Shown: piece by piece, positions 19,356 to 61,725 of the stretch
How the letters are laid out: every line of letters begins with the position of its first letter
How positions within the stretch are numbered: the stretch's first letter is position 1
DNA from: an uncultured Ignavibacteria bacterium
Lineage (GTDB): Bacteria > Bacteroidota > Ignavibacteria > Tepidaquicellales > OLB5
Reading direction: 5' to 3'
DNA: 64,000 bases
Assembly (NCBI GenBank): GCA_937873695.1
Contig: CALMYL010000007.1
Span: 62,001-126,000 of the forward strand
Notes under the pieces: model-generated
Told to the model about the DNA's origin: nothing
The model's input: the letters and a program-made list of their open reading frames with translations, nothing else
Database searches by the model: none
Position numbers and translations under genes: made by a program

Positions 19356-20978
19356 ATGAAAACAATTATATTAATATTTTTAATTGCATTAACTGCGGAA
19401 TGCAGCTCACAGATAATGCCGGAGCCATCATATATAAACCAGTTATGGAAAGCGGAATTTGGTGCAGAAAACCAGCTGGGTATGACAGTTGATGCTGCCG
19501 GAAATATTTATGTTATCGGTACAATCTTTAACGAAAGCCTTGATTGGCTGATAATAAAATACAGTCCATCAGGTGAAAGACTTTGGTTTTCACAATTCAG
19601 TGAAAATTATAGCGGTGAACGTGATGATATACCGCATGCAATAGCTGTAGATAACTTAGGTAATGTTTACGTTACGGGTGAAAGCTATTATTTATCTGCT
19701 GATTACCTTACTATAAAATATAATTCCCAGGGTGTTAAGCAGTGGCAAGAAAGATACGGAGGGCCGGGGCAGGATATTGCGCTGGGGATTGCGGTGGATG
19801 AGAGCAGGAATGTATATGTTACCGGAAAGGAAATGACAGGCGGCAACCTTAATTGCGTAACGTTAAAATATTCTTCAGGCGGAACACTTTTATGGGAAAA
19901 ACAGTACGACGGTCCAACCGGTAATTATGATATGGGAAAACTAATTGAGGTTTCAGCGGACGGAAATGTTTATGTTGCAGGCAGCACTGAAAGCCCTGCC
20001 AACGGGTATGACTATTTGCTTATTAAGTATAATTATTCGGGAACAGAACAATGGGTAAGGACTTTTGGCGGCCCCGCGCATGGTACCGATGGTGTTCGTA
20101 AAATGGTACTGGGATATAATAACAGTATCTATATTACAGGAATAAGCGCAGGCACAGGTACAGACTATGATTATCTTACAGTAAAGTATAATGCCGCCGG
20201 AAATATTCAGTGGTCAAAAAGATATAACGGTCCCGTCAACGGTGATGACCGTGCGGTATCACTGGCAGTTGATGATTTCGGGAATACATATGTAACAGGA
20301 TACAGCATGTCCAATTTGGGCTATGACTATGCGACGGTAAAATACAGCCTTAACGGAACGTTCCAATGGCTAAGAAGAGAAGATGGCAGCAATGCTTCTG
20401 ATGATTATGCCGGTGATATAGCTGTTGATGAGGATGGTGATATATATGTAACAGGTAATTTTAAAAAAGCCGATGATAACTACATGATGGCAACAATAAA
20501 ATACAGCTCTTCGGGCAGTCAGAAGTGGGTTAAAAAATATAATGTTTCAGGAAAGGTAAGTGAAGGCCGCAATATTTTAATTGCCGGCTCAGAGAATATA
20601 ATTGTTGGCGGTATGAGTGACCAATCCGGCAGCGGACACGGGTGGTACGAGAAAATCCTTGTTGTAAAATACACACAAAGTCCGTACATAATAGTGAACA
20701 GAAACGGAACACCCTCTGAGTTCTCGCTTTCGCAGAATTATCCTAATCCGTTTAACCCGGTAACAAAAATATCATTCAGTATCCCGGATAATTCATACAC
20801 AAAGCTTACGGTCTATGATATTTCAGGCAAACAGGTGGCAGAGCTAGTTAACGGTGAGCTTGATGCGGGCTCGTACAATATTGATTTCGATGCCTCGCAT
20901 CTTGCAAGCGGAACGTATTTTTACAGGCTTAAGACAGGTTCGTTTACCGAGGTGAAGAAGATGATGCTGGTGAAGTAA
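19356..20978 (+). CDS. Secreted SBBP-repeat protein with T9SS sorting domain, 3
   Basis: This 540-residue protein has a signal peptide (MKTIILIFLIALTAECSSQ), then SBBP repeats over residues 35-445 that are more diverged than in its two paralogues, and a T9SS tail from FSLSQNYPNPFNPVTKI to the end. The signal peptide contains a Cys (AECSS), so lipidation is a minor alternative. It starts 26 bases after the previous gene, consistent with one operon. Confidence 0.88.
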   Translation: MKTIILIFLIALTAECSSQIMPEPSYINQLWKAEFGAENQLGMTVDAAGNIYVIGTIFNESLDWLIIKYSPSGERLWFSQFSENYSGERDDIPHAIAVDNLGNVYVTGESYYLSADYLTIKYNSQGVKQWQERYGGPGQDIALGIAVDESRNVYVTGKEMTGGNLNCVTLKYSSGGTLLWEKQYDGPTGNYDMGKLIEVSADGNVYVAGSTESPANGYDYLLIKYNYSGTEQWVRTFGGPAHGTDGVRKMVLGYNNSIYITGISAGTGTDYDYLTVKYNAAGNIQWSKRYNGPVNGDDRAVSLAVDDFGNTYVTGYSMSNLGYDYATVKYSLNGTFQWLRREDGSNASDDYAGDIAVDEDGDIYVTGNFKKADDNYMMATIKYSSSGSQKWVKKYNVSGKVSEGRNILIAGSENIIVGGMSDQSGSGHGWYEKILVVKYTQSPYIIVNRNGTPSEFSLSQNYPNPFNPVTKISFSIPDNSYTKLTVYDISGKQVAELVNGELDAGSYNIDFDASHLASGTYFYRLKTGSFTEVKKMMLVK

Positions 20979-21074
20979 GACCCCACCCATCACGCCTGCG
21001 GCGTGATTTCCCTCTCCAAAGGGGAGGGCGTTCAAACAAGCGAATAAGAAATTATAAATATAAAGGAGCAAAAA

Positions 21075-23228
21075 ATGTCAATCAAAAAAATTACAACTTT
21101 CATACTGGGCATCATGCTTTTGGCGGGAACTCTCAATGCGCAGATGTTCTGGAACCAGGCGGCGAAGTTCGAGAACGGTTCATACATTGCGGGTCCTAAT
21201 ACGCTATCGCTGAATATAGTGGGCAGTCTAACAATAGAAGCGTGGGTTTACCCGACAGTCAGCACCGGAGTGAGGTACATTGTGTTCAAAGGGAACGCAT
21301 CAAACGGTTACTATCTGCGATTAAACAGCAATGGTACAGTATCGCTTGGCACAGACGGCATAAACCGGATAACCAGCACAACAATTGTGCCCGCAGGTAA
21401 ATGGAGCCATGTTGCAGGCTCATACAATGTGGCCAATGACGAGTTCAAAATTTTCGTTAACGGACTCGAAGATGGTTCAACCGTAAGCGATAACGCGCCA
21501 AACACAAATACTGATTCTTTGTTTATCGGAAAATTCGGCGGGAATACTTTTACCGGCCTAATGGATGAAGTGCGCATTTGGACAAAGGCTGTAAGTCCCA
21601 CAATGATAAGAAGAAGTTTCAGGACTTCGCTTACAATTTCAAACGGTCAATATGTATCGCTTCTGTTTTCAATGCCGTTCCAGAGAATTAACAGTTCAGG
21701 TACTTCGTTTACAATACAGGATCTTTCGCTGAACCCGATATCGGTGAATCCCACTTATAACCGCGGTGTAACCGCTGTGGATCTCAGCGGCAGGCCATCG
21801 GATTACTTAGGAAATAACGAATCTCTGTTGTTTGAAGGTAACAATGATTCATATGCAGAGATCGCGACTAATACGCTTAACAGTCTTACGGGCGCTATGA
21901 CAATTGAAGCATGGGTAAATATCACGGGCAGCTCGGCGGTTAATCAATATATAATCCACAAAAACGCCCCCGGCGGCAACGGTTACAGGCTGATGGTGAA
22001 CAGCTCACAGAAATTAAGCTTTTCAATAAACAATTCAGTCTTCAACAGCGGCTCTGCGGTGATTGAATATAACAGGTGGTATCATGTAGCATGGGTTGTC
22101 TCCGCATCGGGCGCATCATCGCTTTATATTAACGGTAACCTTGATGCATTCTACGGTTCTGCAGGTACACCGGCTGCAAATCCCGAACCCCTGTACATTG
22201 GCAGGGGGTTAAAAGGCAACATTGATGAATTGCGTGTTTTTAAATTTGAGCGCACAATTGATGATATCAGAAAAAGCATGTATGAATCAATGGATGACGC
22301 GAACGCTCCCGCGGGTGATTGTTTTGTTTTCAACTTTGATGGCTCTGCGTGGGCACAGAAAAACCTCCAGATCTATTCACTGCATGGCAATACTTATTTT
22401 TCAAATACTGCGGCATTCACAGGTACATCAAGTCCGCTTGTAAGGGCAGATAACATAAATTTCCGTGAAGGATTTTACAAAGAGCTTACGTACCGCAGGA
22501 TACCTGAAACAGGTACGCAGGGCGCGATGCAGGATGACTCGATATTTATTCCCGATAATGTAACTATTAATGACTTAAACCTTTACCTTAGCCTGAACCA
22601 TGCCGGCGTTGAACAGCTTACCGTTACGCTTATTTCGCCAACGGGGCAAAGCTACCAGTTCATAAACGGTTATATCAGCCCTTCGCTGGGATACAACTTC
22701 ACAACAATTTTTGATGACCAGGCAGACAGCACTCTAACAAATAACAGGTATTACAGCCTTCTTCCGCGTATTAAAACACAGGGCAGCATTAACAACGCAT
22801 TCAGCGGCAATAGTTCAGCGGGCATATGGAAACTGAGGATAAATGATGTATCCGGTCTAGAAACAGGTTATTTAACGGCATGGGGAATTCAGATAAACAA
22901 CTCGCCCGTTATTGGAATTCAGAATATTTCGGGGGAAGTGCCTGAAAGATTTTCATTGGGTCAGAATTACCCGAATCCTTTCAATCCGAAAACAAATATC
23001 AGGATACAAATGCCAAACAACGGTTCTGCAAAGCTGACTGTATTTGATATTGCAGGCAAAGAAGTTGCGGTATTGGTGAACGATGAACTGAATGCGGGTA
23101 CGTATGATGTTGATTTTGACGGAAGTAATCTGGCGAGCGGAACATATTTTTATAAACTTGTTGTTGGTGAAAACACTAACAACGGGGAGGGTTTTAGTGA
23201 TGTGAAGAAGATGGTTTTAATAAAGTAA
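21075..23228 (+). CDS. Secreted LamG / P-domain protein with T9SS sorting domain
   Basis: This 717-residue protein has a signal peptide to about residue 22. Two LamG/concanavalin-like modules follow (roughly 30-190 and 250-410), each with the pattern SLTIEAWVYP or AMTIEAWVNI, then W.HVA, then LFIGKFGG..F.G.MDEVRIW. Residues about 470-610 are a proprotein convertase P-domain, and the last 80 residues are a T9SS type A domain (FSLGQNYPNPFNPKTNI). P-domains usually accompany a protease, but no protease domain is present here. A carbohydrate- or protein-binding surface protein is inferred. An AAGGAG site precedes the ATG. Confidence 0.9.
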   Translation: MSIKKITTFILGIMLLAGTLNAQMFWNQAAKFENGSYIAGPNTLSLNIVGSLTIEAWVYPTVSTGVRYIVFKGNASNGYYLRLNSNGTVSLGTDGINRITSTTIVPAGKWSHVAGSYNVANDEFKIFVNGLEDGSTVSDNAPNTNTDSLFIGKFGGNTFTGLMDEVRIWTKAVSPTMIRRSFRTSLTISNGQYVSLLFSMPFQRINSSGTSFTIQDLSLNPISVNPTYNRGVTAVDLSGRPSDYLGNNESLLFEGNNDSYAEIATNTLNSLTGAMTIEAWVNITGSSAVNQYIIHKNAPGGNGYRLMVNSSQKLSFSINNSVFNSGSAVIEYNRWYHVAWVVSASGASSLYINGNLDAFYGSAGTPAANPEPLYIGRGLKGNIDELRVFKFERTIDDIRKSMYESMDDANAPAGDCFVFNFDGSAWAQKNLQIYSLHGNTYFSNTAAFTGTSSPLVRADNINFREGFYKELTYRRIPETGTQGAMQDDSIFIPDNVTINDLNLYLSLNHAGVEQLTVTLISPTGQSYQFINGYISPSLGYNFTTIFDDQADSTLTNNRYYSLLPRIKTQGSINNAFSGNSSAGIWKLRINDVSGLETGYLTAWGIQINNSPVIGIQNISGEVPERFSLGQNYPNPFNPKTNIRIQMPNNGSAKLTVFDIAGKEVAVLVNDELNAGTYDVDFDGSNLASGTYFYKLVVGENTNNGEGFSDVKKMVLIK

Positions 23229-23920: not shown

Positions 23921-24325
23921 AAAACTTTTTCAGCTCCCCTCCTTTCGAGAAATCACGGAGTGATTTCGAAGTCTGCACCTGCCGGCGGCATGGCCGCTTT
24001 AGCGGGATAAAGGAGGGGAGCAAAAAATTAAAATTTGTGGTGTCGGGTATTTACCCGACATGCGTCAGGTGACTGTCTGGGCTGATGTCACGACAGTCAG
24101 GAATACCTGACGCCACAATTAATATTGAATCATCTCCGCAGAGTCCCTTAACAGGAGACTCTGCGGAAACGGAAAAACTTTTTCAACTCCCCTCCTACCT
24201 TAGGAGGGGAGCTAAAGCAATATTTTGAAATTCTCTTTAAAACTTTGTACATATTTTTTTCGAAAAAAATCACGATTCGGGGCTTTTATCTATATGCAGT
24301 TATAATTAATTTAAACAAAATTCAT
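23921..24325. repeat. Repeat mosaic between DUF3592 gene and the paralogue cluster
   Basis: In this 405-base gap, positions 23933-24021 are a family D element in inverted orientation whose two halves (agctcccctcctttc and aaaggaggggagc) are separated by other palindromes (gaaatcacggagtgatttc, and cggcggcatggccgctttagcg). Positions 24038-24116 hold hairpins with gtcgggtatttacccgac and gacagtcaggaatacctg parts. A cgcagagtc...gactctgcg hairpin follows at 24137-24164, and a short cccctcctaccttaggagggg element at 24188-24210. These are nested repeats, not genes. Confidence 0.75.
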
Positions 24326-24898
24326 ATGGGAATATTAAACAGCATATTCAAAGGATTTCACCAGGTAATAAACGGCGGCAAAGATGTGCTTGCACCCGTT
24401 GAAGGAATTGAGTTTGAAGACTGGGCGAAAGCGAATGCCGGTATAGCTTCGGGCAAATCAGTTGATGAAATTATTAAGCAGCTTGGCGTTGACCGTCCAC
24501 GCTGGGATAGAGCCAACGAAGAATGGCTTGCCAGAATGAAAAATGACAAGACATTCACGCTTTCAATGAAGTACGCATCTGTTTTTAACAAGAACGCAGC
24601 GGGCAACCTGCCGCTTAAAAAGGATTTCAACGACCAGACCTATCCCATTGAAAAGTATGCTGAGGTAACGGTTGCAATGGAATTCCTTGGTAAACAGGGC
24701 CGTGATGCACAGGATGTGCTGAAAGATTTCGGGCTCACGGTCGCGGATTATTCAAACTTAGGGAGCTACTATACCAAGAAAATTTTTATGAGCCCGATGG
24801 GGCTCGGGATGAAATTCCAGAACTGTATAATGGAGTACCGCGCGAAGTATGAGAAGATCATACAGGAAGACGGCACACATGATGATATAAAGTTTTGA
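24326..24898 (+). CDS. Conserved hypothetical protein, EDWA-family paralogue 1
   Basis: This 190-residue soluble protein is homologous to the next gene (25066-25578): both contain PVEGIEFEDWAKANAGIASG / PFEGVTLEDWATANAKMVSG, a W.R.NEEWLARMKND segment and GKQGRDAQDVLKDFG. The shared layout suggests two similar helical domains in each protein, ending in NEY/MEYRAKYE. ATG at 24326 was preferred over an upstream TTG because the protein similarity begins there. I recall similar proteins in Bacteroides as DUF6620, but that name is unverified. Function is unknown. Confidence 0.7.
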   Translation: MGILNSIFKGFHQVINGGKDVLAPVEGIEFEDWAKANAGIASGKSVDEIIKQLGVDRPRWDRANEEWLARMKNDKTFTLSMKYASVFNKNAAGNLPLKKDFNDQTYPIEKYAEVTVAMEFLGKQGRDAQDVLKDFGLTVADYSNLGSYYTKKIFMSPMGLGMKFQNCIMEYRAKYEKIIQEDGTHDDIKF

Positions 24899-25065
24899 TG
24901 AATTTGATTTTTGCCTGAATACCTTAATTTCGGTAAAAATCGTTTCAAAACATTCTCCATATTTTTTCCTCAAAAAACACCTTAAGCAGTCTTTTATTAT
25001 TAATTACTAATAACTATTTTGAAGCCATTAATACATTAAATTAACTAATAAGGAGAAACAACATC

Positions 25066-25578
25066 ATGTCAAGCATATTAGAGCCGTTTGAAGGCGTAAC
25101 ACTTGAAGACTGGGCAACAGCAAATGCAAAAATGGTATCAGGCACAACCAAAGAAGAGATCTGCGGACTGCTTGGAATTGACGCGCCGAAATGGGACCGC
25201 GTCAACGAAGAGTGGCTTGCAAGAATGAAAAACGATACATCATTCACAATTTCAACCAAGTACGCTGCCGCATTCAACCAGTCAGCAAGCGGTAACCTTG
25301 GCAAAGGCGGCGCTTCAGCGGCGCAGTCAATAAGCTTTGAAAAATATGTTGAAGCAATGGTTGCGCAGGATGTACTGGGCAAACAGGGCCGAGACGCGCA
25401 GGACGTGCTGAAAGATTTCGGTATGACAGTTGCTGATTACAGTAATGTCAGCTCACACTGGTCAGGCCAGATGATGAGCGATTTTTCGCTTGCAATGAAA
25501 ATGCAGACACTGATGAACGAGTATAAAGCAAAGTACGAAGCTATGAAGCCCGATTCACACAGCGATCTGGAGTTTTAA
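25066..25578 (+). CDS. Conserved hypothetical protein, EDWA-family paralogue 2
   Basis: This 170-residue protein is the tandem paralogue of the gene at 24326 and lacks its first 20 or so residues. Conserved blocks are FEGVTLEDWATANAKM, WDRVNEEWLARMKND, FEKYVEAMVAQDVLGKQGRDAQDVL and MNEYKAKYEAM. A good AAGGAG ribosome-binding site precedes the ATG. It is followed by a repeat-filled gap and then two zinc-ribbon proteins, which may belong to the same functional cluster. No enzymatic motif was recognised. Confidence 0.75.
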   Translation: MSSILEPFEGVTLEDWATANAKMVSGTTKEEICGLLGIDAPKWDRVNEEWLARMKNDTSFTISTKYAAAFNQSASGNLGKGGASAAQSISFEKYVEAMVAQDVLGKQGRDAQDVLKDFGMTVADYSNVSSHWSGQMMSDFSLAMKMQTLMNEYKAKYEAMKPDSHSDLEF

Positions 25579-26068
25579 AAGAAATTGTAGATTGCAAATT
25601 AAAGATTGCAGATTAAGTTAAGCTAAATAAGTAAATTGAGTAGCCCCGCTTTTTGGAGCGGGGTCTCTATACGAAAAAAATCCGGGCTTTCTCCGAAGGA
25701 GTGCCTTCAGCAAGCCCTGAAGAATGTTGTTTTCAAAACCGTTAAAACGGTTTCGATTTTCTTCGTTTATTTATACCCACGGATAAATCCGTGGGCTGAT
25801 TACCGCTGCCCGGATTTAGGCAACCGGTATTTATGTAACCAGGATTAACAAAACACAATAAATGATTCATCTGTTAGAGTTTTTTAAAAAAATTCTCTGC
25901 TATTTCGGTTTATAGCCCACGACTTCAGTCGTGGGAATGATTTTGGAAGTTATGCAAAAAACCGTTTTAACGGTTTTAGCATACAGAATTATTTAACAAA
26001 TATAGAAATATCGTGAATGCATAATCCCCGGAAATTTACAATGGGGGTTTAAAACACATGGGTATATA
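25579..26068. repeat. Composite palindromic repeat region, copy A
   Basis: This 490-base gap holds, in order: CCCCGCTTTTTGGAGCGGGG near 25643, gggctttctccgaaggagtgcctt near 25684, aaaccgttaaaacggttt near 25736, cccacggataaatccgtggg near 25776, cccacgacttcagtcgtggg near 25916 and a second aaaccgttttaacggttt near 25959. The first four recur in the same order at 26609-26760. No gene is visible. Confidence 0.8.
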
Positions 26069-26533
26069 ATGACAGAATTTAACAAAGAAATTGACGCGGC
26101 TTTTCAGAGCGCATGGCATGCGGCCAAAGGCGGCGATGCGAAGTGGTACGAAGTAATGCAGCAGTACGGCGCTGAGCCGCTCAGCGAAGGCTTGAAAAAA
26201 GAGCTGCTGGAATCCGAAATGAAGATCGCACGGGGGGCTTTCCCAATTGAGCTGCGCCGTGTGATGGAAAAGATCATGGCGAAGTATCCCAATGATGCAA
26301 AAAGCTTCGCGATGGATCAGAAGGTGCTGGAGTATTACCAGAAAATTAAGCCCTTCACAGGGCTTGGCGATATTTTCGCGAATGCATCAACGGGAACGGC
26401 TAAATACTCGCAGGGTCTGCAGAAGGAAAAGCATAACACTATCAAATGCAAGAATTGCGGCGCTCCGCGCCTGGAGGAGATGCAGTATGATAACTGTTTG
26501 TTCTGCGGAAGCGAGCTGTTTGAAAGAGCGTAG
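26069..26533 (+). CDS. Zinc-ribbon hypothetical protein, paralogue 1
   Basis: This 154-residue protein is helical for its first 115 residues (WYEVMQQYGAEPLSEGLKKEL) and has a C-terminal zinc ribbon, CKNC followed by CLFC about 15 residues later. The WYEVMQQYGAEPL block resembles YYEVLQQTEAPLDNV in the next gene, so the two appear related. It lies between two copies of the composite repeat. Function is unknown. Confidence 0.7.
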   Translation: MTEFNKEIDAAFQSAWHAAKGGDAKWYEVMQQYGAEPLSEGLKKELLESEMKIARGAFPIELRRVMEKIMAKYPNDAKSFAMDQKVLEYYQKIKPFTGLGDIFANASTGTAKYSQGLQKEKHNTIKCKNCGAPRLEEMQYDNCLFCGSELFERA

Positions 26534-26820
26534 GTCAGCATCCCGCTTACAGCGGGACTGCGCCTCACACCTTAGCGTGAGGCTTGAAATGCAAAAATTT
26601 TTTGATTAGCCCCCCTCTTTAGAGCGGGGTGTAAGGCTACCCCTATATTCGGGCTTTCTCCGAAGGAGTGCCTTTGGCAAGCCTGATTGGTATTTATGTA
26701 AACTGTTAAAACAGTTATGTATATCTTCACTTTATTTTACCCACGGATAAATCCGTGGGCTAATGAATTAATTAAGCACAGACAGGAATGTCTGTGCTAC
26801 TAAAAGCAGGATTAAAGAAA
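26534..26820. repeat. Composite palindromic repeat region, copy B
   Basis: This 287-base gap repeats the order of elements of copy A: CCCCCCTCTTTAGAGCGGGG near 26610, gggctttctccgaaggagtgcctt near 26652, aaactgttaaaacagtt near 26700 and cccacggataaatccgtggg near 26740. It adds agcacagacaggaatgtctgtgct at 26775-26798. The upstream in-frame ATG of the next gene lies inside this last palindrome. Confidence 0.8.
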
Positions 26821-27552
26821 ATGGCAGACTCATCACAGGCAGTACAGGATCTTGTAACAAGATGGAACGGTTTTTTGAAAAAGATCGAAGCGCGTTATTA
26901 TGAAGTGCTTCAGCAGACAGAAGCTCCGCTTGATAACGTGATAGCGAACCTTCAGTTCGATAACATTATCATACATAACATTTCAAACGGGTTAAAGAAC
27001 CAGACGGTGACACAGCTTTCTGAAAAAGTTGATGGCGCAGCAGGAAAGTTTGAAAGTGAAATGCGCGCAGCGGGAGCGTCATCGGGGCTCATCTCGCAGG
27101 AGCGCGGCAAGACTCATGTATTAAAAAACTGGATGGAAATTGAATACCTGAAGTTTGAGAACAAGCTTGCGGCGCGCGCCGCAAGGAAGATTCTGGAGAA
27201 TGTTAACGCGCACATAGATGAATCGAAGATGCACCGCTGCACGCAGTGCGCGGCTGACCTGCACATAAATGTATTTTCATTTATGGCGGTAAATATTAAA
27301 TGTGAAAGCTGCGGCTCGGTGAACACATACCAGCCGGATGACAGGGTGAGGGCTTTGGAGTGGTATGTAATTACTCCGCTGGCTGAAGAGTACGCCTTTG
27401 AGGAAAAACTGAAGGCGCGAACCGATAAAAGCGCGATGAAAGAGTATTACAGAAAGTTCTATACCTACCTTATGGAAAACGTTCCCGATAAAAAGCAGTA
27501 TTACGAGCGTGATATGAATGAGCGGCTTACCAACCCGATGTTCATGATGTAA
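26821..27552 (+). CDS. Zinc-ribbon hypothetical protein, paralogue 2
   Basis: This 243-residue protein has a helical N-terminal half with YYEVLQQTEAPLDNV, a zinc ribbon at about residues 140-165 (CTQC and CESC), and a charged C-terminal domain ending in LTNPMFMM. The ATG at 26821 is preferred to an in-frame ATG at 26788, because the extra residues are encoded by a repeat palindrome. It is related to the smaller gene at 26069 and closes a group of two paralogue pairs (24326-27552). Role unknown. Confidence 0.7.
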   Translation: MADSSQAVQDLVTRWNGFLKKIEARYYEVLQQTEAPLDNVIANLQFDNIIIHNISNGLKNQTVTQLSEKVDGAAGKFESEMRAAGASSGLISQERGKTHVLKNWMEIEYLKFENKLAARAARKILENVNAHIDESKMHRCTQCAADLHINVFSFMAVNIKCESCGSVNTYQPDDRVRALEWYVITPLAEEYAFEEKLKARTDKSAMKEYYRKFYTYLMENVPDKKQYYERDMNERLTNPMFMM

Positions 27553-56178: not shown

Positions 56179-57459
56179 TTGAACAATTCTTTTAACAAAA
56201 TACTTGACAATTTAGTAGAAGGGGAAAAATATAAAACATTGCCCCCTCGTGGACCAATTGATTTGCCATTTCCTTCAGTTTCTGATGAAGAACTTCAGGC
56301 AAGCGAAGAAGATATTTACGGGCAAAACGAAAGAGACCCTTTAAACAAAGAAAATCCAAACATTAAAATTGCTGAACAATCAGGAATCTATGAAGTAAAA
56401 TTACCAGATTCTAAATTACTTGAAGGGTTAAGCGTTATTGGTATAGCTGGAAATAATATTAGAATTCTTACAACATCCTTCCACCTTATATTATCAAAAG
56501 CAGCAGTTGTTAATTTTAAATACACTAAAGGATTTGACAAACCATATTTCTACACCAAATTCAGGAACTCTTCTGCTTTAATGGTTTTAGATAACAATAT
56601 ATTTGAAGATAATTATAGTCTATTTACCTATAACGATCTTTCAGAAAGAGATATTTCTGTACCGATATTAGATCATATTTATAAGAACCCTGACAAACCG
56701 TTTCGATTTAAATACAATTATGAAAAATCTAAGAAGTCACCAAGTTCTCAATCTTTAGGTTTAGCCGTTAAATTTCAACACACGCTCGAACTTTCGACAA
56801 TAGAAGACACAAACTTTGATCAACTTGGCACAACAATATGTTTGAAGGAAGGTGCTCTTTTTTCTAATAGTACACAACAAACAGATATTAAAAATGGATT
56901 AAAAAAATTATTTCAGTGGGCGGATAAACCAAAAATATTTATTGCTGTTTCGAGTAAAGTTTTCGAATCAAGGGTATTTATTAATACTTTAACTAGTTTG
57001 CCTCATTTAATAGAAGATTATTTTCCAGATCAAAACATTACAACTAAGATTATCAATTCATTTGGAACCGACACACTTTTATTAAAAAAAATACTTAAGC
57101 CAGGATTTCGAACTCCTTTAATAGAGTATATTGAGAAAACCAGAGAAGGGGTAATTAGCGACCCAGAACTGGAAGGCTTAAAACCTGTAACATGTTATTA
57201 TCATAAAAGAACAAAACCGTATAACTTTATTCGGCTGGAAATACCTAAATTTATGTGGGAAAAGAATAAAGCCTTGGTAGAATTTGCCATATCGGTTGTT
57301 ATTTGGCAGTATGAGCTTGGGGGCAGCAAGCCATTGGTGTTAAAAGCAGCTCTTGAACGGTGCGAGCTTGATCACGAGAAAAACATAATAGAACAACAAA
57401 TGAAGGCAGCATTTGAAAAGAAAAAACTTGATTTAATTGAATTCTTAAGCGTTTCTTAA
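56179..57459 (+). CDS. NurA-domain-like protein (degenerate nuclease motifs)
   Basis: This 426-residue protein is encoded immediately before a HerA-like ATPase. Its layout resembles NurA nucleases: a first strand VIGIAGNNIRILTTS (88-102) at the position of the VDGS motif, TTICLKEGALFS (about 220-230) at the LIDGSL position, and a C-terminal YNFIRLEIPKFMWEKN then GGSKPLVLKAALERC, like the RVE-P and YP-PL-AH motifs. The first catalytic Asp of NurA aligns to Ala90 and the second to Glu224. If the alignment holds, it is a catalytically altered NurA. Start codon TTG. The gap to the next gene is five bases. Confidence 0.5.
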   Translation: MNNSFNKILDNLVEGEKYKTLPPRGPIDLPFPSVSDEELQASEEDIYGQNERDPLNKENPNIKIAEQSGIYEVKLPDSKLLEGLSVIGIAGNNIRILTTSFHLILSKAAVVNFKYTKGFDKPYFYTKFRNSSALMVLDNNIFEDNYSLFTYNDLSERDISVPILDHIYKNPDKPFRFKYNYEKSKKSPSSQSLGLAVKFQHTLELSTIEDTNFDQLGTTICLKEGALFSNSTQQTDIKNGLKKLFQWADKPKIFIAVSSKVFESRVFINTLTSLPHLIEDYFPDQNITTKIINSFGTDTLLLKKILKPGFRTPLIEYIEKTREGVISDPELEGLKPVTCYYHKRTKPYNFIRLEIPKFMWEKNKALVEFAISVVIWQYELGGSKPLVLKAALERCELDHEKNIIEQQMKAAFEKKKLDLIEFLSVS

Positions 57460-57464
57460 CCATA

Positions 57465-59282
57465 ATGTGCACAAAAATGAATAACAATAATTTAAAAGTT
57501 GAAGTCGCTAAACCATACCACGACATAAACACACCGTTTTCTATTGACGAAAAAGGGGCTTTAGCAGAATATATTATTAACGATCCCGAAAAAATGCCAC
57601 AACTAGCACTTGGAGCCTCTATACTCATAAGGGATCGCATTCGAGAAGATAACACTCAAGAGGATTTTTGGTATGCAGGTAGGATTATTGGATTAAAAGC
57701 AGTATCTCCATTTAATCCCGAAAGAACAAGCATGCTTTATCAAGAAGATGAAGAAATGGATCCAACAAAACCTTTAGATGAAATTAATGGTCCGCATACA
57801 CATCAACCAATGGTAATTCAAGTAGCCCTTACAAGAGAGATTAGGTTAGACAACAATATATATTTAGATTCAGCAATACAAAGACCTCCCTCTGCACACA
57901 GTAGATTGTTTTTCCCTAACCTAGAACCGAAAGAGGGGGACAATTCACCCACATTAAAAACAATATTACAAGTAAAGGATCAAGGGCTTTCATTAGGAAT
58001 GATAGGTTTTGGTAATAAACCATATGGGTGGAAAGATAACAAATTTATTGAATATAAATGGGACATTGAAAAATTAGACAACAAACACATTTTTATCGTT
58101 GGCGAAAGCGGCTCGGGAAAAACAGTTTTGCTTAAAAATTTGGCTTATCAGTTAAGAAAACTCGATTCTACTAATAGAATTATATTAACCGATGTACAAG
58201 GAGATATTTCACAATTATTGATGTGGGATTTTGTTAATAAAATACCTTCAAGAGATTGGCAACCTGCCGTTTCCACAAAAGACTTTGAAAATGCTAAAAA
58301 GTTATTTGGTAAATTTCGTTTAATAGTACCAAAAACAAAAGATGATTTCGACGTTGATGACGTAAATGCTCTATGCAAGTTAGCCTTAAAAAGAGGTGTT
58401 GACGTTAGACGGATTGGATTACGTTTCCAGGATTTAGACTCACCAAAAGATGCCGAATACCTATATCGTACAAGTTCAGACCAAGCTGCATTATTATTGG
58501 AAGATTTGGCAGAGGGACTAAAAAATTCAGGTGAACCACCTTCATTGTCCAGGCTTCAAACTGCTATATCGCGATTATTATCAAGAAATACAGGTAATCA
58601 AATAACCATACCCACTTCAGGAGGATCCTATTACCGAAGCACCTTTGAAGCTAGCAGAAGAGCATTAAGAAGTCTAGAAGAATTTTTTGATTTAGATCCC
58701 GATGCTCAACAAGAAGATCAAAATCCATTAGATAACTTTGATTTTGACGGCACAACAATTTTATATTTAGATCATTTAAATCAAGATGAAAGATTTATGT
58801 GGGAAATGCAGTTAGTAAATTGGTTATATAGGAACAAGAAAAAAATGCATAATTCTTATGTGTTTTTTGATGAAGCTCATCAAATCATACCATCTACTAA
58901 ACATACTGGTATAGGTAGTTCAGCAGAAGTTTTTAACAGATTAAGATCCAATTTTGAGAAACTTGCAAGAGAAGGTCGTAAATTTAGACTGAATTTAATT
59001 TTAAGCACACAAAACCCACAGGATCTTCATACAATAGTGCCCGAACAATGCCCTACAAGGATTGTAATGAAAATTAATCCTAAAAACGCTGCACACACCT
59101 TTTTAGATAAAGAACTTGCTTATATAGCTAACAGTTTTAGCCAGGGTCAGTTTTGGATTCAGAGTCCCTTCAACGGAACACCTGACTGGGTTAGGGTTCA
59201 CAGCATTGCGCCCCCAATTCCACATGAATCTATGGAAACCTATAGAACTAAACTTATGGAAAAAGCACGCTCGGAAAAATAG
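57465..59282 (+). CDS. HerA-like DNA translocase ATPase
   Basis: The 605-residue protein has an N-terminal HAS-barrel-like domain (about 45-160: LGASILIRDRI then FWYAGRIIGLKA), and an FtsK/HerA ATPase core. Walker A is GESGSGKT at 213-220 and Walker B is VFFDEAH with Asp469-Glu470. RKFRLNLILSTQNPQDL and CPTRIVMKI near 520-545 contain the expected sensor and arginine-finger regions. HerA forms a hexameric ring that pumps DNA and works with NurA or with other effectors in anti-phage systems. The gene is second in a tight four-gene operon. Confidence 0.88.
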   Translation: MCTKMNNNNLKVEVAKPYHDINTPFSIDEKGALAEYIINDPEKMPQLALGASILIRDRIREDNTQEDFWYAGRIIGLKAVSPFNPERTSMLYQEDEEMDPTKPLDEINGPHTHQPMVIQVALTREIRLDNNIYLDSAIQRPPSAHSRLFFPNLEPKEGDNSPTLKTILQVKDQGLSLGMIGFGNKPYGWKDNKFIEYKWDIEKLDNKHIFIVGESGSGKTVLLKNLAYQLRKLDSTNRIILTDVQGDISQLLMWDFVNKIPSRDWQPAVSTKDFENAKKLFGKFRLIVPKTKDDFDVDDVNALCKLALKRGVDVRRIGLRFQDLDSPKDAEYLYRTSSDQAALLLEDLAEGLKNSGEPPSLSRLQTAISRLLSRNTGNQITIPTSGGSYYRSTFEASRRALRSLEEFFDLDPDAQQEDQNPLDNFDFDGTTILYLDHLNQDERFMWEMQLVNWLYRNKKKMHNSYVFFDEAHQIIPSTKHTGIGSSAEVFNRLRSNFEKLAREGRKFRLNLILSTQNPQDLHTIVPEQCPTRIVMKINPKNAAHTFLDKELAYIANSFSQGQFWIQSPFNGTPDWVRVHSIAPPIPHESMETYRTKLMEKARSEK

Positions 59283-59292
59283 AATTTTTATT

Positions 59293-60192
59293 ATGAAACT
59301 TAAGAGAAGAAAAGCCACAAACTTACCTATAGATTGGACAAAAAAAGAAGAGCAGACTCTTTTAGATGTTCTTGCAAACCAAAAGCTCGAGGGAAAAAGT
59401 ATAGCCAAATTATTTCCTAAAAGATCTATGGCAAGCATAAGAAGTAAAGCAAGAAAATTAAAAATAAAACATGACTTGTTTGGAAATCATTATAGACAGA
59501 AGAAATCAAGTTTTACAATTGACCTTGCTTCGAAAATAAATCCACAGAATGTTTTTGATGCATATGCCGGCGCAGGTCATCAAAGTTTTGAATGGATAAA
59601 GTTTGCTTCAAGAGTATATGCCTCGGAGTCCATGAAAACCAAAATCAAACAATTTGATTTAAGCGCTAAAAAAAATGGCTTTTTAAAACTCAAAAAGAAA
59701 AAAGGTAATTGGTTTCAATATACAAAAAAAAACAAAAAAATATTTTTACTTAATGGCGACCTTATTGAAGCCGCAACAGATTTAAGGTTTAGAAAAATAA
59801 AAATAGACACTGTAGATTTAGATACTTGTGGCTCTACAATCCCAACCCTTCCGATATTGTTAGCTTTGCTTAAACCAAAACATTTACTCATTACACATGG
59901 AGAATTTCATTCAATGAGGTTTAAGAGAGAAGATGTTTTGAGAAGACTTTTTACCCATAGAGATATAAGTAAAAATCCGTTTCCTTTAAAAGTTGATGAG
60001 ATGAGCAAAGAATTAGATAAAAGCGTTAAAACCTCTGCGTTAAGAGCACATAACGAAACAAGCAAATCTTTCTGGCTAGTGCTAGTAAAAGAAACATGGT
60101 TAGGTAGCAAATTCCATGGCATGTTAAGAAGATACTATTCTGTTAAAAAACCCCCAGCAACATCAGACTGTATAAATGTAATATCAAAATAA
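59293..60192 (+). CDS. Myb/SANT-like DNA-binding domain fused to a Rossmann methyltransferase-like domain
   Basis: The 299-residue protein begins with a basic segment and a Myb/SANT-like motif (residues about 12-60: IDWTKKEEQTLLDVLAN, KSIAKLFPKRSMASIRSKARKL). From residue 87 there is a class I methyltransferase pattern: motif I VFDAYAGAGHQ (Asp89-Gly95), motif II RVYASESM, motif III LLNGD, and a motif IV-like DLDTCGS at 175-181, reminiscent of the Trm1 tRNA methyltransferase (DLDPYG). The target (DNA or RNA) and activity are unknown. ATG 59293 is preferred over the upstream start that overlaps the HerA gene. Ten bases separate it from that gene. Confidence 0.6.
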   Translation: MKLKRRKATNLPIDWTKKEEQTLLDVLANQKLEGKSIAKLFPKRSMASIRSKARKLKIKHDLFGNHYRQKKSSFTIDLASKINPQNVFDAYAGAGHQSFEWIKFASRVYASESMKTKIKQFDLSAKKNGFLKLKKKKGNWFQYTKKNKKIFLLNGDLIEAATDLRFRKIKIDTVDLDTCGSTIPTLPILLALLKPKHLLITHGEFHSMRFKREDVLRRLFTHRDISKNPFPLKVDEMSKELDKSVKTSALRAHNETSKSFWLVLVKETWLGSKFHGMLRRYYSVKKPPATSDCINVISK

Positions 60193-60201
60193 ATTTTTTA
60201 A

Positions 60202-61725
60202 ATGGCATTACCGGTAAACATAAAGAACTTAGTAAACGGAACAAGTGTTGAGTCTGAACGCATAGAATTTAAAGAAGGATTTAATCCCGAAGCAATACTT
60301 CATTCTATTTGTGCTTTTGCTAATGATTTAAATAATTGGGGTGGAGGATATATTATCATTGGCATTAAAGAAGATTCTGGGAGACCAGTGCTTCCCCCTA
60401 TCGGATTAAATCAAAATCAAATTGACCCATATCAAAAAAAAGTAATAGAATTATGTTACTTAATTGAACCATTTTATTTTCCCCAAATTTTACCATATGA
60501 TTATGATGGAAAAACAATTATTGTTATATGGGTTTCGGGTGGAGATAATAGACCATACAGAGCTCCCAAAAGTTTGGGCAATAAAAAAGATAAAGCTCTA
60601 TATATCAGAAGAGCATCCACATCAACGATAGCAAATTCTACCGAAGAAAGACATTTGTTAGAACGTGCAGCGAGAATCCCCTTTGATGACAGAGTCAGTC
60701 ATTTCGGCAAGATGGAGGAAATTAACCCCAAATTAATTCAAGATCATCTAAGAGAAATTAAAAGCGATCTTTTGGAAGAATCACAACACCTAACCACAAT
60801 TGAATTTTATAGAAAAATGGAAATTGTTAGAGGTCCCGATGAAAACCCACGTCCACTAAATATTGGTTTATTATTGTTTTCAAATAAACCCGAAATTCAC
60901 TTTAAAGGTGCTGTAATTGATGTAATAATATATGGTGACGAAAGCACAACCGTTTTTATTGAAAAACAATTTAGCGAACCTGTCCATATTCAATTAACTA
61001 ATGCACTTAATTACATAAAGACGAATGTAATTCAAGAACAAGTTGTTAAAATATCCGGACAAGAACAAGCAAAAAGAACACTAAACTACCCTTTTGATGC
61101 AATCGAAGAAGCACTGGTAAATGCAGTTTATCATAGAAGCTATGAAGACCATAGGCATACAGAGGTTAATGTATTTAACGATAGAATTGAAATTTTAAGT
61201 TACCCAGGTCCATTACCACCAATAACCAAGGAAATTCTATTTAACGATAGAATAATTGCAAGAGATTATCGTAATCGAAGAATAGGAGACTATCTTAAAG
61301 AACTAAAACTTTCAGAAGGCAGAGGATCTGGAATTCCAACCATTAGAAAAAAAATGGAAGAAATAGGTTGTCCACCACCCGAATTTATAACAGATGACGA
61401 CAAATCATATTTCCTGACGATTTTAAAAATAAATCCAGAATGGGATAAAAAAAATAATGCTAGACCAAATGGACACAGTATCGTTCAATTAACCAATAAC
61501 GAACAATTGTTGTTGGAATTTTGTTTAAATGAATCTAGAACGTTTAAAGAAATCAACTCTATTTTTATCAAGCTTAATTCTAAAGAAGTGAAAAAAATAT
61601 TGGATTCTGTTCTTGAGATGAAATATATTTCTGAAAAGAGAATCGCTAAATTTATTGGTATCATGAAAATTTCTGTGTACACTACAACAAAAAGAGGTAT
61701 AGATGTTCTTAGTACTTCTTTCTAA
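60202..61725 (+). CDS. Schlafen AlbA_2-domain ATP-binding protein
   Basis: The 507-residue protein has an AlbA_2 (Schlafen-type) domain at about 10-145 with the ERIEFKEGF motif (residues 19-27), FANDLNNWGGGYIIIGI and YIRRASTSTIANSTEERHLL. It continues as a COG2865-type protein with a GHKL-like ATPase segment (FDAIEEALVNAVYHRSY, then GRGSGIPTIRKKMEEIGCP) and a C-terminal winged-helix region. Such proteins appear in transcription regulation and in anti-phage islands. It is the last gene of the operon, nine bases after the methyltransferase-like gene. Confidence 0.85.
   Translation: MALPVNIKNLVNGTSVESERIEFKEGFNPEAILHSICAFANDLNNWGGGYIIIGIKEDSGRPVLPPIGLNQNQIDPYQKKVIELCYLIEPFYFPQILPYDYDGKTIIVIWVSGGDNRPYRAPKSLGNKKDKALYIRRASTSTIANSTEERHLLERAARIPFDDRVSHFGKMEEINPKLIQDHLREIKSDLLEESQHLTTIEFYRKMEIVRGPDENPRPLNIGLLLFSNKPEIHFKGAVIDVIIYGDESTTVFIEKQFSEPVHIQLTNALNYIKTNVIQEQVVKISGQEQAKRTLNYPFDAIEEALVNAVYHRSYEDHRHTEVNVFNDRIEILSYPGPLPPITKEILFNDRIIARDYRNRRIGDYLKELKLSEGRGSGIPTIRKKMEEIGCPPPEFITDDDKSYFLTILKINPEWDKKNNARPNGHSIVQLTNNEQLLLEFCLNESRTFKEINSIFIKLNSKEVKKILDSVLEMKYISEKRIAKFIGIMKISVYTTTKRGIDVLSTSF

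Follow-up and report, generated by a model that had tools for sequence, protein, structure and literature searches.

In the PspA-YdjGHI system of Bacillus subtilis, the membrane foci of the SPFH protein YdjI need YdjG and YdjH, both of which are membrane proteins, and PspA depends on YdjI (PMC8581546). YdjG carries a zinc ribbon, and Band-7 proteins adjoin pspA in several phyla, Bacteroidota included (PMC9239133; PMC11237479). The link of SPFH proteins with PspA/ESCRT-III proteins has been discussed more widely (PMC10936438), and Band_7_1 was given as the commonest partner of SHOCT (PMC3581485). In the portions of the literature on SPFH, zinc ribbon, phage shock, Band_7_1 and SHOCT that were accessible, no description of the gene cassette presented here was found, and no literature naming DUF6620 or PF20325 was found. 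The cassette lies in a stretch of 64,000 nucleotides from an uncultured Ignavibacteria bacterium (lineage OLB5), namely CALMYL010000007.1 positions 62,001 to 126,000 of the forward strand; this whole stretch is called the window, and all positions refer to it. A preliminary description had claimed a four-gene group at 24326-27552, and four open frames, denoted A, B, C and D, are present there, all on the + strand. A and B are DUF6620-related proteins, and C and D look like zinc-ribbon proteins because each has two CxxC knuckles. The unit conserved among genomes is composed of B, C and D, which may form a cytoplasmic three-subunit adaptor complex serving a Band_7_1 SPFH membrane scaffold; a probability of about 0.5 was assigned to this reading.

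The conservation of the unit was evaluated in 59 genomes of relatives, the window's own genome included, 13 of which belong to the window's genus. Moreover, 22 loci were fetched with the D profile, mostly from species already represented among the 59 genomes. B, C and D had the same order and strand in all 22 loci. Eleven of these loci come from other genera; C and D are 2-9 bp apart in 10 of them, and the gap of the eleventh (L112) is overstated, the D frame there being trimmed to its first ATG. The B-C gap was 3-110 bp in 10 of these 11 loci and 414 bp in one, and the gaps were 57-391 bp in the 11 other loci of the window's genus. Among the 59 relatives, 26 contained C, 27 contained DUF6620 and 25 contained D, which in one case was a broken remnant. 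The presence of the families was mismatched in G041 and G043, in which C reaches the contig end, and in G020, which has a DUF6620 frame with one stop at the contig end. A fragment of D with 48% identity over 62 residues and two stops was seen in a genome in which neither C nor DUF6620 was matched (G021:C21:42270-42455, L060), and this fragment is probably the remnant of a lost cassette. C and D occurred in all 13 genomes of the genus, with the same neighbourhood in the five that were compared. The proposal that B-C-D, with one copy of each gene outside the genus, is the true conserved unit is well supported.

The surroundings of the unit were explored in 11 neighbourhoods of 17-19 kb besides that of the window. 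In the six neighbourhoods of family f2, only members of a large family (c0) were in common with the window's besides the cassette, and no fourth conserved partner gene was found there beyond that family. G013, which belongs to the window's family, has the two downstream clusters c5 and c6 in common with the window's genus. The zinc ribbons, the helix-turn-helix-like helices of the predicted models (see below) and these two downstream genes of G013 would suit transcription regulators of a neighbouring gene set. Such a role is nevertheless unlikely, since the f2 neighbourhoods have no flanking gene in common with the window's except the c0 members, B is acidic, and a regulator with three subunits would be unusual. 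The preliminary description had suggested that the two families function together and had named their separation in other genomes as evidence to the contrary. They remain neighbours in the 22 loci and also in the distant loci L127 and L137-L142, and it is very probable that they function together.

The relationship of A and B was examined by BLASTP, according to which 91 of 170 residues were identical (54%, expectation value (E) 2e-66). The EDWA-type paralogue pair of the preliminary description is thus genuine. The DUF6620 family (PF20325) has a curated cut-off of 27 bits and a model length of 450 positions. The hmmscan scores were 44.6 bits for B and 28.9 bits for A, both above the cut-off, and those of the six-frame search were 43.8 and 25.0 bits, respectively. 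Hence, A is a marginal member of DUF6620, its six-frame score being under the cut-off, although it is plainly a paralogue of B. Both proteins match roughly the last third of the model, as does a homologue of 320 amino acids (aa) (263-450), and they share the EDWA modules and the C-terminal tail with the long homologues; some B orthologues also score under the cut-off.

The copy numbers of the families differed. Two DUF6620 matches were found in 11 of the 13 genomes of the window's genus, and at most one in each of the other 46 relatives. C was matched once in 25 of its 26 genomes, the remaining genome (G017) showing a second weak match (E 3.9e-4) within a frame of 723 aa, and D had one match in each of its 25 genomes. 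The A copies placed in the tree (n = 10) formed a single clade with a support of 100/100. A grouped outside the genus on a branch of 0.95, which may reflect long-branch attraction. Furthermore, A did not always adjoin B: it was located about 7 kb upstream with intervening genes in G002, 1282 bp upstream in G011, and on a different contig in G005 and G008. In these comparisons we see what appears to be a single duplication, of DUF6620 and in the window's genus only, atop an older three-gene unit, rather than two duplications. The pairwise duplication and parallel divergence of the preliminary description are thereby replaced.

Two CxxC knuckles were present in 23/23 orthologues of C and 23/23 of D, the window's included, which upheld the earlier assignment of both as zinc-ribbon proteins. 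The ribbon of C has a C-terminal position with its knuckles 12 residues apart (C130 to C143), and that of D lies mid-protein with its knuckles 17 residues apart (C143 to C161) and is followed by a conserved NTxxP. Residues C140, C143, C161, C164, N168, T169 and P172 of D were invariant in 13 rows, distant homologues included. C and D had been described as a second paralogue pair sharing a YYEVxQQ block. The block is present in the window, as WYEVMQQ in C and YYEVLQQ in D; it is conserved in only 5 of 23 C orthologues and 9 of 23 D orthologues in the form [WYF]YEVxQQ, and L119 has NWNKILNSYG in C and RFNDILTQTD in D at this position. The shared block is thus a local coincidence. A second paralogue pair was not borne out: the BLASTP comparison of C with D gave E 0.023 across 19 residues (a single comparison), the profile-profile comparison gave a probability of 10% across 10 ribbon columns, and the ribbon spacing differed. 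The treatment of C and D as one paralogous family was rejected, as no significant sequence or profile similarity was found outside the ribbon. Parallel duplications of two interacting families would agree with the paralogy of A and B and with the ribbon in each of C and D. Scarcely any weight can be given to this account, since the similarity of C and D is limited to the short block and the ribbon, and since C and D can already be told apart in three lineages, whereas A was found in one genus only. Neither C nor D belonged to a family above the cut-off in Pfam or NCBIfam, and no PHROGs or PADLOC match of either protein was below E 0.01.

Distant homologues were searched for in a phylum sample of 395 genomes with thresholds of E <= 1e-5 for C, E <= 0.001 for DUF6620 and E <= 1e-4 for D. 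The Ignavibacterial C profile matched 3 of the 395 genomes, and DUF6620 and D matched an identical set of nine and no others. In G328, which belongs to another class (locus L127), DUF6620 (306 aa), C and D (287 aa) abut in the order B-C-D. Its C homologue was matched with E 7.9e-19, and its D was related to that of the window with E 1e-19 in BLASTP and to the Ignavibacterial profile with 99.6% in hhalign. The DUF6620 protein of G328 has an additional EDWA module (second match E 1.6e-8; the protein is 1 of the 12 profile rows), and within its class DUF6620 was found in no genome other than G328 itself (1/98). Lineage f34, with six genomes of two genera (L137-L142), has the order C', D', DUF6620, in which C' is a protein of 80-82 aa with the ribbon alone. 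D and D' were homologous along their length (hhalign 99.1%, E 3.9e-19), and DUF6620 matched its f34 homologues with 99.8%. The far DUF6620 homologues were strongly acidic (net charge -29 and -39), and their tail ends in D-[IV]-[DEN]-F.

A Band_7_1 (PF13421) SPFH gene was located within the gene run of the cassette in all six f34 genomes. In one genus, represented by five genomes, it lies immediately upstream, and in the other genus it lies downstream, past a YcxB-like gene. In the two genomes scanned, PF13421 scored 256.6 and 126.1 bits and was accompanied by SHOCT. Band_7_1 at E <= 1e-20 was present in 9/9 cassette genomes of the phylum sample and in 45 of the 386 others (Fisher 9e-9), and in 4/4 cassette genera compared with 16 of 166 others (Fisher 1.4e-4). 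The figure by genus is the fairer one, because five of the nine cassette genomes belong to one genus. Among the 59 relatives, a strong Band_7_1 match (>150 bits) occurred in 23 of the 26 genomes with C and in 12 of the 33 others, with the remnant-bearing G020 and G021 counted among the latter. These results suggest a Band_7_1 SPFH scaffold as the partner most clearly indicated.

Several observations weigh against this reading. Related species enter the phylum test as separate counts, with five of the nine genomes belonging to genus g104, and G383 of the same genus has a weaker Band_7_1 match and lacks the cassette. The D hits in six of the nine genomes (G000, G076, G255, G294, G328 and G352) arose by construction, as these genomes supplied rows of the D profile after D had been found beside DUF6620; the independent part of the co-occurrence consists of G009, G079, G391 and the 386 misses. 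C and C' were alike in the ribbon alone (94.8%, 33 columns). G007, G012 and G032 have the cassette without a strong Band_7_1 match, and two of these three are more than 90% complete. Within f2, the distribution of Band_7_1 (10/11 vs 12/18) was not significant (Fisher 0.15). The SPFH gene occupies a separate locus in Ignavibacteria and in G328, in which it lies on another contig than the cassette. PspA/IM30 (PF04012) was found in G328 alone among the seven cassette genomes tested and not in the other six, the window's own included, so that the Bacillus parallel is incomplete. Finally, the B-C gap contains three terminator-like hairpins on the + strand (the region as a whole had 10, against an expectation of 4.8), and a single transcript across the unit of the window is therefore not assured. 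A promoter scan gave 8 hits where 8.8 were expected and was uninformative.

The SPFH gene of the window's genome is located on another contig (C4:64016), scores 211.7 bits, is 35% identical to the SPFH protein of the f34 gene run and is grouped with CxxC-pair (zinc-ribbon) proteins of its own. A second conserved Ignavibacterial group was seen in 7/7 loci inspected (L163, 5939-9946 on the genome's contig C4, and L164-L169). It is composed of a Band_7_1 SPFH gene, two related CxxC-pair proteins and a third protein with a weak LysW-like ribbon (18 bits, under the cut-off), and it is preceded in 5/7 loci by an unknown protein of about 175-194 aa.

The structures of B and D were modelled with AlphaFold2 using 20 and 26 close sequences. 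The D model had a predicted local distance difference test (pLDDT) score of 84.7 and a predicted template modelling (pTM) score of 0.76, and comprised three long helices (6-42, 49-83 and 88-131), a helical tail and a zinc ribbon that was modelled with low confidence. The B model (pLDDT 76.5, pTM 0.49) showed two successive four-helix units, which was consistent with the internal repeat detected in the sequence (hhalign score 24.2, probability 30%, vs at most 14.9 in 30 column shuffles). In the fold search of D, E <= 0.001 was reached by none of 184 PDB and none of 252 viral matches, and in that of B by none of 104 matches. The best VIA-align match of D was a designed protein (Z 13.1, root-mean-square deviation (rmsd) 2.3, 119 aligned), and the list is uninformative on function because it was filled with generic helical bundles. 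For the EDWA unit of B, the best match was ScaR (Z 4.9, rmsd 3.9, 58 aligned), tied with MntR, VqmA and DeoR; the predicted helix-turn-helix resemblance is weak, at a level where chance likeness is common. Sequence searches of solved structures yielded no significant match for A, for D or for any of the three profiles, the best value being E 0.072, and the D ribbon weakly resembled RNA polymerase subunit P (E 0.072). None of A-D has a strongly hydrophobic stretch, the maximum 19-residue mean hydropathy being 1.09 (0.38 in C and 1.09 in D). The net charges were -8 for B, -1 for A (nearly neutral), 0 for C and -2 for D.

A stable three-subunit cytoplasmic complex would be the simplest account of the unit. 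It is possible, with the odds against it, that such a complex is unrelated to SPFH proteins, for instance linked to nucleic acids or the ribosome, and that the f34 gene run is a local arrangement. The weakly helix-turn-helix-like EDWA modules, the likeness of the D ribbon to subunit P, the separate SPFH locus in Ignavibacteria and the basic C of G328 (net +5, isoelectric point 9.1) point in this direction. However, B and the distant DUF6620 proteins are acidic, unlike typical DNA binders, Z values below 5 are within the range of common arrangements, and a strong Band_7_1 match is present in every cassette genome of the phylum sample.

The ratio of nonsynonymous to synonymous substitution rates (dN/dS) was 0.02-0.07 for A-D in the 15 of 16 gene-genome pairs with computable dS (four genus genomes), and 0.04-0.07 for gene A; dS was near or above 1 in many pairs, so these values are rough. 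All four genes are under purifying selection. A patchy distribution, with C in 26 of 59 relatives and the cassette in nine of 395 phylum genomes, could be expected of toxin-antitoxin, polymorphic toxin or anti-phage defence genes. Purifying selection and the constant occurrence of C and D throughout the genus argue against this, and no toxin, nuclease or defence family was found above chance in A-D. The PADLOC anti-phage models gave no match for A-D (best E 0.016, D to ZorA3; next 0.026). Regarding a mobile origin, B matched nothing among phage or plasmid records, and viral contigs gave no match to the profiles of D and DUF6620; C was not searched in these collections. A toxin or defence role is accordingly very unlikely.

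The coordinates of the features are collected in Table 1.

Table 1. Genes, zinc ribbons and intergenic gaps of the cassette in the window.
Feature	Position	Strand	Description
Gene A	24326..24898	+	190 aa; DUF6620-like paralogue with longer N-terminus; extra copy found only in window's genus
Gene B	25066..25578	+	170 aa; DUF6620 with two internal EDWA modules and C-terminal SDLEF tail; cassette gene 1
B-C gap	25579..26068	+	490 bp; perfect palindromes at 25736, 25776, 25916 and 25959; three terminator-like hairpins
Gene C	26069..26533	+	154 aa; N-terminal part without known family, C-terminal zinc ribbon; cassette gene 2
Zinc ribbon of C	26447..26506	+	C127, C130, C143, C146; invariant columns in 13-row alignment
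C-D gap	26534..26820	+	287 bp; similar dispersed repeats; palindrome at 26740
Gene D	26821..27552	+	243 aa; three long helices (predicted), central zinc ribbon, helical tail; cassette gene 3
Zinc ribbon of D	27238..27312	+	C140, C143, C161, C164, then NTYQPDD

The start of gene D is most likely the second methionine, at 26821, judging from the alignment. This start was preferred because the listed ATG at 26788 falls inside the repeat-rich C-D gap and because 9 of the 12 other rows in the alignment of the longest ATG frames begin at or after the equivalent of 26821; the other three begin earlier, with a short stretch of different sequence. For gene A, the listed start at 24245 is a TTG extension, and the ATG at 24326, which the preliminary description had used, matches the orthologues of 190 aa.

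The gaps of the window contain short perfect palindromes, AAACCGTTNNAACGGTTT twice and CCCACGNNTNNANNCGTGGG three times, for which the chance expectation is about 0. When the 3.2 kb segment was used as the query, 48 additional places of its own genome were matched, in every case by pieces of the B-C and C-D gaps. CCCACGNNTNNANNCGTGGG also occurred in four other loci of the same genome (L002, L004, L005 and L007) and in the loci of G011 and G025. It seems from these matches that a dispersed family of palindromic repeats has invaded the operon of the window.

Upstream of the cassette, large proteins ending in an NPFNP...SGKQV...GTYFYRL tail are encoded at 19356-23228; the tail resembles a type IX secretion sorting domain. 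In L096 (4983-11686), A and B are separated by several members of the same cluster (c0). Elsewhere in the window, the low-GC stretch at 56179-61725 (about 0.33) has a HerA-type ATPase (57465-59282) preceded by an unknown protein of 426 aa, a protein of 328 aa, and a Schlafen AlbA_2/RecG-C protein (60202-61725). It looks like a small defence island in its gene content.

According to the adaptor reading, B, C and D would be the subunits of one conserved cytoplasmic complex, and A would be a later extra copy of B. The complex would act as an adaptor or assembly module for the Band_7_1 SPFH protein, itself an oligomeric scaffold on the inner side of the cytoplasmic membrane. D, with its three-helix bundle, zinc ribbon and helical tail, may be the backbone, and C may be the second ribbon subunit. 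DUF6620, which has a tail ending in D-[LIV]-x-F besides its two or three EDWA modules, may be a multivalent adaptor. Together with the SPFH protein, the complex might contribute to envelope upkeep or repair under stress, in the manner of YdjI, YdjG and YdjH of Bacillus, in this case without PspA. The unit, its conservation and co-occurrence, the gene run with SPFH in one lineage and the purifying selection were observed, and we infer the physical complex, the SPFH partnership in Ignavibacteria, the membrane role and the part of each subunit. In this way, DUF6620 and the two families that are nameless in four libraries, all three of them lacking an assigned function, would gain a shared identity and a testable partner. 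SPFH scaffolds are often discussed with PspA, and the cassette suggests that further soluble complexes serve as their partners. Moreover, the parallel-duplication reading is corrected to one duplication on an old three-gene unit.

The cassette was finally compared with the PspA-YdjGHI system of B. subtilis. Many genomes carry Band_7_1, often with SHOCT (PF09851), without the cassette, as in the 45 of 386 phylum genomes above. A YdjI-type PF13421 protein is present in the window's genome, at a distance from the cassette. YdjG and the TPM-domain protein YdjH are membrane proteins, whereas C and D have CxxC pairs and no hydrophobic stretch. PspA was present in one of the seven cassette genomes tested, and DUF6620 was found in none of 14 control genomes, B. 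subtilis among them. Because PspA and a membrane-anchored ribbon protein are missing, the cassette is not a member of the PspA-YdjGHI system. Tentatively, DUF6620-C-D might be an undescribed, PspA-independent SPFH partner complex of Bacteroidota, in which a soluble zinc-ribbon adaptor, docked on a Band_7_1 scaffold, would replace PspA and the membrane proteins YdjG/YdjH. At most, the cassette would resemble the Bacillus system in outline, and this outline is that of the f34 gene run, in which, as in B. subtilis, a Band_7_1 SPFH protein is found with zinc-ribbon partners.

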